From a virus, in the IMG/VR virus record IMGVR_UViG_3300031565_000170, positions 1 through 36,171 of that record: DNA of 36,171 nucleotides; one strand, 5' to 3'. Shown here in pieces: positions 2,827-7,714 of the stretch; position 1 is the stretch's first letter, and every line of letters starts with the position of its first letter. The notes under the pieces are model-generated. The model was not told where the DNA came from. It worked only from the letters and a program-made list of their open reading frames with translations, and did not search any database. The position numbers and the translations under genes are program-made.

Positions 2827-3816
2827 ATGAAGGAATCTAAATTAATAGCGCCCTTTCCTTGGTTTGGAGGTAAATCAAAAGTGGCTAATATTGTATGGCC
2901 GCGTATTGGATGCGAGGTATATAATTATGTAGAGCCTTTTTTTGGAAGTGGATCTATGCTATTCGGGCGCCCGGGGGGTCCGGGTAAAGTAGAGACCGTC
3001 AACGATAAAGATGGGTATGTATGCAATTTTTGGCGTGCTATACGATCTGATCCCGAAGAGGTTGCATATTATGCGGATCGTCCTGTAAATGAATGCGATT
3101 TGACGGCTGTTAATGTGAGGTTAACGTTACAAGGATTACGACCGGAACTAGTGGAACGGTTAGAAGGAGACTTGGATTATTGTGATGCTAAAATAGCCGG
3201 ACTATGGGTATGGGGACTGTGCTGCTGGATAGGTGGTGGTTGGGCCTCCGCAGATGGGCCTTGGTATGTATCAGACGACGGACGCCTATTGGACCGCCGA
3301 AAGCTACCACGCCCCAGCGACGCGGGGATGGGAGTCACCCGCCGGCGTCCTCACCTCGGCTGGGGGCGTGGAGTCCTCCGCCAGCAAATCCGACTACTGC
3401 CTTGGTTCGCGGATCTCGCTAATCGGCTGCAACATGTACGGGTGTGTTGCGGCGACTGGCGGAGGGTATTGGGTAATGTGCCAACATGCTCACTAGGTAC
3501 TACAGCAGTATTCCTAGACCCGCCTTATGGAGGTGATGTGGGCAGGGATAACAATTTGTACGCTACGGAGGATTTGACCGTCGCGGCGGAAGTACAAATA
3601 TGGTGCGTCGAAAACGGAAACAATAAAAAAATGAGGATTGCTCTTTGTGGATACGAAGGTGAGCACAATATGATTGAGTCTTTAGGATGGACGGTATTTG
3701 CTTGGAAAACGGAAGGTGGATACTCCACCGCTGACAACCCAAACAAAAACAAAGAAAGGATATGGTTCTCGCCGCATTGCCTAGCGGGTGATCAGCTACA
3801 ATTGGTGTTGCTTTAG
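2827..3816 (+). CDS. D12-class N6-adenine DNA methyltransferase (Dam-like)
   Basis: This 329-residue protein carries the hallmarks of D12-class adenine methyltransferases. The N-terminal PFPWFGGK (9-16) is the FxGGK motif of the AdoMet site, followed by EPFFGSGS (36-43). The catalytic DPPY is at 231-234. The segment with HLGWGRGV and CCGDWRRVL also matches the conserved middle of this family. It would transfer a methyl group from S-adenosylmethionine to the N6 of adenine in DNA, probably protecting phage DNA from host restriction. No cognate endonuclease is seen nearby, which suggests an orphan enzyme. The central part (about 3190-3490) is clearly richer in GC than flanking genes, hinting at acquisition from a high-GC source. 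AAGGA lies 8 bases upstream of the ATG. Confidence 0.9.
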   Translation: MKESKLIAPFPWFGGKSKVANIVWPRIGCEVYNYVEPFFGSGSMLFGRPGGPGKVETVNDKDGYVCNFWRAIRSDPEEVAYYADRPVNECDLTAVNVRLTLQGLRPELVERLEGDLDYCDAKIAGLWVWGLCCWIGGGWASADGPWYVSDDGRLLDRRKLPRPSDAGMGVTRRRPHLGWGRGVLRQQIRLLPWFADLANRLQHVRVCCGDWRRVLGNVPTCSLGTTAVFLDPPYGGDVGRDNNLYATEDLTVAAEVQIWCVENGNNKKMRIALCGYEGEHNMIESLGWTVFAWKTEGGYSTADNPNKNKERIWFSPHCLAGDQLQLVLL

Positions 3817-4915: not shown

Positions 4916-7714
4916 ATGAGGATTGATAAAAAGTCATTTGACAAGCAAACAGATCAAGCAAAGACGGCGTTAGGGCAAGATCAATCTGATGATGTCCCAC
5001 ATCGTCCTTTGACCGATGCCGAGCTGGAAAAATTCGCCACTCTAATTCTGAATTTTTCTCAAGAAATGTGTGGATTGGATTTGTTTCCGTATCAGCATGA
5101 ATTCGGATGGAGGATTATTTATTCAGTGATTGCCGAAGATTGCGACGAAATAACGGCATTATTTTCCAGGCAATCAGGAAAGTGCCTTGCAAAGGGCACT
5201 AAGATTTTGATGTATGATGGGAGCGTTAAGGCCGTAGAAGACATCAAAGAAGGAGATGTCTTGATGGGGGATGACTCCACCCCTAGAAATGTGCTTTCCA
5301 CTTGTTTGGGAAATGAACGCTTGTGGAGGGTGAATCCTAATAGCAACGGGCATGAATCCTATGTTGTAAATCAGTCGCACATTTTGACGGGAATAACCAG
5401 CTATGATGGGCGCGTTGTAGACCGAAGTGTTAGAAGCCTTTTGAAGTTGAAATGCATTGAAAGTTCTTTCTTAGGATATAAAGCCAAAGTATCATTTCCA
5501 TTTAAAAAAGTTCCTGTTGATCCGTATTGGTTTGGATTGTGGCTTGGAGATGGATCTTCGTACGATGTTGGAATTACTACAGTCGACTCAGAGGTGGTTG
5601 ATTATTTAACTAACCTAGCGCTTTTAAAAGGAATGCGTCTTTCCAAATATCCCGAAAAAAATGCGTCTGATACATATGCGATCACTCATGGGAATTGTGG
5701 CGGTGGAAATGGTGGCAAGAAAAATCCGTTTAGAGACGCATTAAGAGATCTTGGTGTAAATGGTAATAAAAGAATTGCGGATATATATAAAATAAATAGT
5801 GAAGACATTAGGCTGAGTGTTTTGGCTGGGATTATAGATAGCGATGGGCATAGGCCAAACATAAAAGGAAAAGAAAATACTTGCGAGGTTACTTTTAAAT
5901 CAAAACTTTTAGCTGAAGACGTACAGTGGTTGTGTAGATCTTTAGGATTTAGAGCCGCGTTAGAGTGTAATCAGGTTAAGGAAAAAGATTATTGGCGAGT
6001 TAGAATTTACGGTGAATTGTGGAAAATACCTACTTTGATAAAAAGAAAGCAATATTCCTGTGGAAAACTTAGAGAAAATCCTCAATCCTATGGTTTTACT
6101 TTAGTAGATGAGGGGTTAGGAAATTATTACGGTTTTGAGATAGATGGTAACAAGAGATTTTTACTTGGTGATTTTACGGTCACTCACAATACGGAAGCCG
6201 TTGCCGTAGTTGTTTGTGGGATGATGGTGATGCTTCCTTTGTTAGCAGCCACTTTAAAACACGAACCAAGGATGACTAAGTTTAAGGATGGTTTGTGGTG
6301 CGGAATATACGCTCCTCATTATGAGCAATCTGCAATAATGTGGTCGAGAATGAAGATGCGCCTTTATTCAAAAGCTGCTAAAGAGGCACTTTTAGATCCT
6401 GATATCGATATCGATTTGACGGGTAAACATGTATCTCAAAACATGACCTTGCCAAATGGTTCTTATGTTGATTGTGGAACAGCAGCGCCACAAGCAAAGA
6501 TCGAGGGTAAGACCTATCACTTGATTTTGTTGGAGGAAGCGCAAGACATTAATCCGGTGATTATGCGGTCCTCGATTCATCCGATGGCGGCCGCTCTTGC
6601 TGGGTCCTTAGTAAAGATTGGAACCTGCAACAGAAGCAAGTCTGATTTTTATTTAGCTTGTAAACGGAACAAGAGAAAAGACCTGGCCAGCGGAACAACT
6701 AGATCCAAAGTAAGATTGCACTTTGAATATGACTACACAGTTGCTCAGAAATACAATCCAAGATATCGAAAGTATGTTGCCAAAGAAAGAGAACGGTTAG
6801 GGGAGGACTCTGATGATTTCAAAATGAAATACCGATTACATTGGATGATGGAAAGGGGTATGTTTGTTAGTGAGGACCTTATAAGAGAATGCGGAATAAA
6901 TACTGAGAATCAATCTTTGTTTGTCGAAAAAGGAAAGGGCAACAGAAAGAAGAAGATTGAATTTAAGAGGCCGCCAAATCTCGTTACCTATGACCCTGCT
7001 TCTGTCGGATTGGTAGCAGCCATTGACGTGGGTAGAGAAAATTCAACAGTGATCACCATAGGAAAAGTTTTTTGGGACCTTCCTATTCTGCATGGTGGAG
7101 AAGAGCGTTTTCCTATTCATGTGTATAATTGGTTGGAGCTTCAAGGTGATAATCACGAAGCGCAACACCCACAAATATTAGACTTCCTTAAAAATTATAA
7201 ATTGACAGATGTTATAATTGATGCAACTGGTAAAGGCGATCCTATTTATTCTCGTTTAGCTGTTGAGCTGGATAAGTATGACATAACAGTTACGCCTTTT
7301 ATTTTTTCGGAGTCCTCAAAGGATGTGGGCTATAAAGTTTTTTCTCAAGAATTATCTACTAGACGATTCACTTATCCTTCAGGATATAAAGCAAGTAGAT
7401 CTAAGAAGTGGCAAAAATTTATTTCTCAAATGACGGACTTGCAAAAATCCTGGAGAGGTCAAAAGATGGTAGTATCAAAGCCCAAAGATGATAACGAGGC
7501 ACGAGACGACTTCCCAGATTCGTCCATGATGTTGTGTTGGCTTGTGAATGTTCGTGGCACTATGGAGATTGAGGAAGCCCCTAATATGTTTGTGGGAAGA
7601 AACGCAAGGAATTCTTCATCGGATCTTATAAATGACGCCAGGTATTGGTACAGAAGCAGATTTAATCCAAGGCAACGTGGTGTAAGGGATAGTCATAGAG
7701 GAAGGTGGGATTGA
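4916..7714 (+). CDS. terL: Terminase large subunit (TerL) precursor with intein
   Basis: The gene encodes 932 residues, of which 90-425 are an intein, so spliced TerL would be 596 residues, a normal size for the family. TerL is the ATP-driven motor and nuclease that packages DNA through the portal. The Walker A motif is rebuilt by joining SRQSGK (84-89) to T426. Walker B is LILLEE at 536-541. The C-terminal RNase H-like nuclease has candidate metal ligands D704 (AAIDVGRE), D769 (VIIDATGKGD) and D864/D865/D868 (RDDFPDS). The start at 4916 lacks a Shine-Dalgarno sequence. Upstream in frame there is a stop at 4892 and only a CTG, so no better start exists. It is followed by a TGATG overlap with the next gene, then by portal. 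Confidence 0.95.
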   Translation: MRIDKKSFDKQTDQAKTALGQDQSDDVPHRPLTDAELEKFATLILNFSQEMCGLDLFPYQHEFGWRIIYSVIAEDCDEITALFSRQSGKCLAKGTKILMYDGSVKAVEDIKEGDVLMGDDSTPRNVLSTCLGNERLWRVNPNSNGHESYVVNQSHILTGITSYDGRVVDRSVRSLLKLKCIESSFLGYKAKVSFPFKKVPVDPYWFGLWLGDGSSYDVGITTVDSEVVDYLTNLALLKGMRLSKYPEKNASDTYAITHGNCGGGNGGKKNPFRDALRDLGVNGNKRIADIYKINSEDIRLSVLAGIIDSDGHRPNIKGKENTCEVTFKSKLLAEDVQWLCRSLGFRAALECNQVKEKDYWRVRIYGELWKIPTLIKRKQYSCGKLRENPQSYGFTLVDEGLGNYYGFEIDGNKRFLLGDFTVTHNTEAVAVVVCGMMVMLPLLAATLKHEPRMTKFKDGLWCGIYAPHYEQSAIMWSRMKMRLYSKAAKEALLDPDIDIDLTGKHVSQNMTLPNGSYVDCGTAAPQAKIEGKTYHLILLEEAQDINPVIMRSSIHPMAAALAGSLVKIGTCNRSKSDFYLACKRNKRKDLASGTTRSKVRLHFEYDYTVAQKYNPRYRKYVAKERERLGEDSDDFKMKYRLHWMMERGMFVSEDLIRECGINTENQSLFVEKGKGNRKKKIEFKRPPNLVTYDPASVGLVAAIDVGRENSTVITIGKVFWDLPILHGGEERFPIHVYNWLELQGDNHEAQHPQILDFLKNYKLTDVIIDATGKGDPIYSRLAVELDKYDITVTPFIFSESSKDVGYKVFSQELSTRRFTYPSGYKASRSKKWQKFISQMTDLQKSWRGQKMVVSKPKDDNEARDDFPDSSMMLCWLVNVRGTMEIEEAPNMFVGRNARNSSSDLINDARYWYRSRFNPRQRGVRDSHRGRWD
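5183..6190 (+). mobile_element. Intein with LAGLIDADG homing endonuclease, inserted in TerL Walker A
   Basis: In-frame insertion of 336 residues (TerL residues 90-425). The N-terminal splice block starts at C90 (CLAKGTKILMYDG). A block B-like segment NQSHILTG follows. The C-terminal end is YYGFEIDGNKRFLLGDF followed by VTHN, with the terminal Asn425 and penultimate His424 needed for cyclisation, and Thr426 as the +1 nucleophile. Two dodecapeptide motifs are intact: WFGLWLGDGS (205-214, acid D212) and LAGIIDSDG (303-311, acid D310). A block D-like NKRIADIY lies between them. All splicing and endonuclease residues I can check are present, so both activities look intact. The insertion separates Lys and Thr of the P-loop, so the motor cannot work until splicing occurs. 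Confidence 0.93.

Follow-up and report, generated by a model that had tools for sequence, protein, structure and literature searches.

The stretch of DNA analysed here (the window) is an uncultured virus sequence of 36,171 bases, in which one open reading frame (4916-7714) encodes, in reading order, FSRQSGK, an insert of 336 residues and TEAVAVVV (Table 1). The gene starts with the ATG at 4916, and the codons of Lys89 (5180-5182) and Thr426 (6191-6193) stand on either side of the insert. A Pfam profile search of the 4916-7714 product gave no significant terminase match, and its identity is based on annotated relatives, PHROGs and gene order. With the insert taken out, the protein is 34-35% identical to large terminases annotated in Streptomyces phages over 85-89% of the length (34% for the TerL of Streptomyces phage BRock), and the genes for the portal and the major head protein follow downstream. 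The flanking protein parts (exteins) contain a deviant T4-type Walker A loop (SRQSGK^T, the caret marking the insertion point), an ILLEEAQ motif resembling Walker B and the acidic residues of an RNase H-type nuclease domain. On these sequence grounds, the host gene is a terminase large subunit gene. Tail sheath, tape measure and baseplate genes lie further downstream in the window, and this tail gene content points to a contractile-tailed phage. Elsewhere in the window, an intact D12-class (Dam-like) adenine methyltransferase gene (2827-3816) has a local G+C of about 0.48, against 0.38-0.40 around it, and is possibly a recent acquisition. A second intein had been suspected in this methyltransferase gene from a split profile match, but none was seen and the gene reads through.

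Table 1. Features of the intein-bearing terminase gene in the window (positions are those of the window; conservation is counted in the family alignment).
Feature	Position	Strand	Evidence and remarks
Terminase large subunit gene with in-frame intein	4916..7714	+	TerL homology; precursor of 932 aa, predicted 596 aa once spliced
N-extein, aa 1-89	4916..5182	+	Its end, FSRQSGK, is the first part of the Walker A loop
Class 1 intein, Hint plus LAGLIDADG homing endonuclease, PI-SceI-like	5183..6190	+	1008 nt, 336 aa
Cys1 of the intein (Cys90 of the precursor), N-terminal nucleophile	5183..5185	+	C in 25/26 relatives
Block B, NQSH, intein N63 and H66	5369..5380	+	NxxH form as in PI-SceI; both invariant, 26/26
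First LAGLIDADG motif, GLWLGDG, intein D123	5534..5554	+	Family alignment
Block D, KRIA, intein residues 196-199	5768..5779	+	Family alignment; consensus KHIP
Second LAGLIDADG motif, LAGIIDSDG, intein D219 and D221	5822..5848	+	Family alignment
Blocks F and G, YYGFEIDGNKRFLLGDFTVTHN	6125..6190	+	D330, penultimate His335 and terminal Asn336, all three invariant
C-extein	6191..7714	+	First residue Thr426 is the +1 nucleophile and the P-loop Thr; Walker B-like motif, nuclease domain

The boundaries of the insert, which begins CLAKGTKILMYDG and finishes FTVTHN, were set to the codon by comparing intein-free and intein-bearing relatives. They place the precursor junctions at Lys89^Cys90 on the N side and at His424-Asn425^Thr426 on the C side. 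An earlier sequence-only reading had given the positions and residues exactly (5183-6190, K89, Cys90 and T426), and its proposal that the intein splits the terminase P-loop by separating Lys89 from Thr426 is borne out by TerL homology, gene order and the Walker A alignment. The insert combines Cys1, an NxxH block B, a terminal His-Asn, a +1 Thr and a Hint fold, as in class 1 inteins, with two LAGLIDADG helices that carry the catalytic Asp residues (D123 and D221). In the intein-free alignment it lies between the Walker A Lys and Thr, as at the TerL1-a type of site. Pfam matches within the insert are to Hom_end_hint (7.9e-19), LAGLIDADG_3 (2.7e-6) and Hom_end (2.6e-5); phmmer matched PI-SceI at 2.6e-18, and the PDB sequence matches were PI-SceI and PRP8 inteins. 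The AF2 model of the intein has a mean pLDDT of 94.2, and Foldseek matched it to PI-SceI over its length (E 3e-26) and also to PRP8 inteins. For the whole precursor, the model was of low quality (pLDDT 50.9), uninformative on the P-loop and left unused. All family-conserved residues (C1, N63, H66, D330, H335 and N336) and both catalytic Asp residues are present in the window intein. In the family alignment, block D is the sole departure of its endonuclease from the consensus: the Pro of KHIP occurs in 24 of 26 aligned members, and the window has KRIA, with Lys196 retained. The description "apparently intact" thus holds for the splicing residues and the catalytic Asp pair and needs qualification at block D, where KRIA could mean a weakened endonuclease. 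From these sequence features, we consider the insert a real homing intein that is probably active.

The same terminase codon is found in several states among relatives. Full inteins occupy it in the window, L001 and L034; L025 has a mini-intein of 138 aa without endonuclease at the same site (GK^S); and the P-loop is empty in L021, L022, L023, L024, L026, L027 and L028-L031, so that the intein-free alleles proposed as a check do exist. These empty GK-T/S terminase relatives are 38-63% identical. The C-extein of the empty L021 is 81% identical to that of L001, and the empty L027 is the sister of L025, with a C-extein 89% identical. On the intein tree, the inteins of the window, L001, L034 and L025 are grouped (support 100/84), which is expected if the endonuclease was lost after invasion of L025. 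Since one phage terminase site can be seen here without an intein, with a full one and with one that lacks its endonuclease, this family is useful for testing the homing cycle. An independent invasion of the related terminase L037 is unsupported, as an AU test did not reject a single clade of all inteins of the window's terminase family (p 0.54).

Other inteins came to light in these genomes. The L025 gene (572-3814) carries two, the P-loop mini-intein and one of 333 aa in motif III (MASA^T), and its sister L027 has neither; the gut phage L019 separately bears a different intein at motif III (SA^T). The motif III inteins of L025 and L019 are comparable to the terminase C-motif site reported in PMC5050341. 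A ThyX-like thymidylate synthase open reading frame in L027 (976-2673) contains an apparent intein, seemingly with an HNH-like insert instead of LAGLIDADG. Finally, the terminase genes of L017 and L018 have apparent P-loop inteins that start with Arg or Leu, not Cys or Ser, and are possibly class 3 or otherwise noncanonical.

Based on these results, we are highly confident that a mobile class 1 intein of PI-SceI (Hom_end_hint) type occupies the TerL P-loop of a contractile-tailed phage, and that it is a selfish element. The Walker A loop could not be continuous in the 932-residue precursor. Excision of residues 90-425 by the Hint domain would proceed through an N-S acyl shift at Cys1, then transfer to Thr426, cyclisation of Asn425 and a final acyl shift, and would join Lys89 to Thr426 in a TerL of 596 residues. 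Because the intein splits the P-loop, packaging would depend on splicing; as cited in PMC6195587, the P-loop intein of P. horikoshii RadA disrupts ATPase function. In co-infection, the LAGLIDADG domain would cleave intein-free terL alleles, and repair would copy the intein in. Its persistence may then be due to the destruction of packaging by any imprecise loss from the P-loop, together with re-invasion of empty alleles by homing, and not to regulation of packaging.

The relatives of the intein, gathered by intein similarity alone from viral contigs and bacterial genomes, place this locus in a wider family. The upstream flank could be read in 108 distinct relatives. Sorted mechanically by site, 87 of these fell at GK^T/S (including L010, L084 and L058, which have no clear Walker A loop), 14 had the insertion point three residues further upstream, at G^[ST]GK[ST], another 3 used a variant K^T/S and the other 4 lay elsewhere, although two of the latter (L085 and L092) are GK^S/T sites whose start was shortened by the alignment. 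About 100 of the 108 lie in Walker A loops. BLASTP sorts the hosts into 25 groups, among them several terminase families, SF2 helicases, DnaB, AAA ATPases, an MCM-type P-loop primase, thymidylate kinase and an archaeal PIN-KH protein. They come from phages, bacteria and an archaeon; the expected spread among unrelated phages is supported and reaches unrelated ATPases. A fold search also picked out this architecture in helicases of giant viruses, in a packaging ATPase and in RFC. A few members sit in portal proteins, none of them an NTPase: L010 (2501-3562, at GGK^S) is an annotated crAss-like portal with weak Pfam support, and L066 (3001-4029) and L071 (3001-4035), at related non-P-loop sites, form one host group, with a P22-type portal match on L066. 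In L004 (5793-7166), an open reading frame for a minor head-like protein has a possible second Hint/intein-like stretch (NCYMPDTLIATNYGWKHF...).

A common P-loop ancestor is an unlikely source of the intein in hosts so different, and we infer that it must have been transferred between genes. The tree has about 14 host-group changes, but their number and direction are unsure, as the AU tests did not reject single clades, either for the window's terminase family (above) or for all TerL inteins (likelihood 50 lower, p 0.14). For the P-loop bias across the family, one possibility, compatible with the selfish-element reading and which we hold open without favouring it, is that the endonuclease recognises the GK-T/S codons in any gene and so jumps between non-homologous P-loop genes. 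In line with this are the concentration of the family in Walker A loops, mostly at exactly GK^T/S and in over 20 host groups that are distinct in sequence, the host-group switches on the tree and the few members in portal proteins. However, in an alignment of 32 GK^T/S sites from 18 host groups, strong base conservation was largely limited to the GxxxxGK[TS] codons, and a long DNA homing site common to all hosts was rejected on this account. These codons are the only DNA common to the hosts, and survival bias, with loss from the P-loop being lethal, could produce an identical pattern. As regards the cause of P-loop siting, the occurrence of a few relatives in portal proteins, which are non-ATPases, favours sequence targeting over ATPase regulation. 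More tentatively still, there may be one PI-SceI-like family specialised on P-loops, with an endonuclease that tolerates GxxxxGK[TS] codons and homes into non-homologous ATPases (terminases, helicases, DnaB, AAA proteins and kinases of phages, bacteria, archaea and, as judged from the fold search, giant viruses), with occasional entry into chance GGK-S sites such as those in portal genes. The clustering of inteins in P-loops, often taken as regulation, may thus reflect sequence targeting together with the lethality of loss, given the relatives in non-ATPase portal genes.

Within the selfish-element reading, the state of the window's endonuclease has to be weighed. It is conceivable, though we think it rather unlikely, that the splicing domain works while the endonuclease is dead or dying, so that homing has ended and inheritance is vertical. 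Such decay would fit KRIA in the window against KHIP in nearly all relatives, as well as the complete absence of the endonuclease in L025. Between L001 and L034, moreover, the endonuclease is 70% identical, below the splicing half (77%) and the C-extein (88%), implying weaker constraint on the endonuclease there. Against this, both catalytic Asp residues and Lys196 are retained in the window, with no frameshift or deletion, and its endonuclease is as conserved relative to L001 (62% amino acid identity) as the Hint part (61%) and the C-extein (64%). With dN at about 0.33-0.36 and dS beyond estimation because synonymous sites are saturated, this equal conservation indicates that neither half is decaying and that purifying selection maintains both the splicing and the endonuclease halves over the distance between the window and L001. 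Co-conversion of the flanks was rejected, as synonymous sites are saturated and identity is not raised beside the insertion. As for targets, the window is 55-62% identical over +/-20 bp around the insertion to the empty relatives sampled, among which no close empty allele of its own site was found, so that none of them is a natural substrate of demonstrated closeness. The suggestion that a near-invariant site favours homing is right only in part, since conservation across hosts extends to the GxxxxGK[ST] codons alone and the surrounding bases differ in the empty relatives sampled. The corresponding identity is 85% between L001 and L021 and 80% between L025 and L027, and published TerL cutting pairs have site identities of 75% and 100% (PMC5050341); the intein of L001 could thus plausibly use L021 as a substrate.

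It is very improbable that the intein is instead a condition-sensitive switch, as the sequence-only reading had proposed, in which oxidation of Cys90 or another signal would delay splicing and hold packaging until conditions are right. Redox control through a catalytic cysteine is known for the P-loop intein DnaBi1 of M. smegmatis (PMC6195587), splicing of P. horikoshii RadA is conditional (PMC5790916), and the window intein has eight cysteines. However, the conservation of Cys1 follows from its role as catalytic nucleophile, and the other seven cysteines are not conserved in the family alignment (8/26 at best); no cysteine occurs at positions -1 to -5 next to the N-junction, and the L001 intein is without most of them. 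Most close terminase relatives are intein-free, so the intein is not needed for packaging control, and in the portal proteins there is no ATPase to switch. The DnaBi1 precedent makes a redox switch in the window intein possible, but with no conserved partner cysteine it is unsupported here, and the selfish-element reading is sufficient to account for the intein.

The window intein can be compared with several known systems. In their study of terminase inteins, Kelley et al. (2016; PMC5050341) described the TerL1-a inteins of mycobacteriophages as sitting between the P-loop Lys and Thr, a "classic P-loop insertion", found that five other terminase inteins splice and that TerL1-b and -c cut intein-free alleles, and noted that inteins generally prefer P-loop ATPases. 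The window intein shares the TerL1-a position between the invariant Lys and Thr (PMC5050341), but its terminase belongs to a different family and the intein itself is of the PI-SceI/VMA type, with about 25-28% identity to the mycobacteriophage inteins found. PI-SceI (Sce VMA1) is its best PDB sequence and fold match, with which it has in common the Hint domain, the two-motif LAGLIDADG, the NxxH block B and the C1/HN ends; unlike PI-SceI, it has 336 rather than 454 residues, a P-loop rather than a VMA-a site, and a phage host. The "intein-containing helicase" inteins of Jerseyvirus, Klebsiella Jedunavirus and Vibrio phages are about 40% identical to it, colinear over 336 residues and at GK^T, but their hosts are superfamily 2 helicases and not terminases. 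Similarly, DnaB P-loop inteins of Bacteroidota and Campylobacterota (about 41-45% identity, GK^T site) reside in a chromosomal replicative helicase of bacteria, whereas the window intein is in a phage terminase. The L025 mini-intein shares the terminase family, the insertion codon and the Hint motifs, and differs in its deleted endonuclease and in the second intein of its gene. A family-wide P-loop survey was not found stated in the literature searched, with most subscription journals outside the reach of the search. The survey of the intein family across hosts extends the known P-loop preference, and the window intein adds to the published Lys^Thr inteins of the TerL P-loop (TerL1-a) a member in another terminase family.
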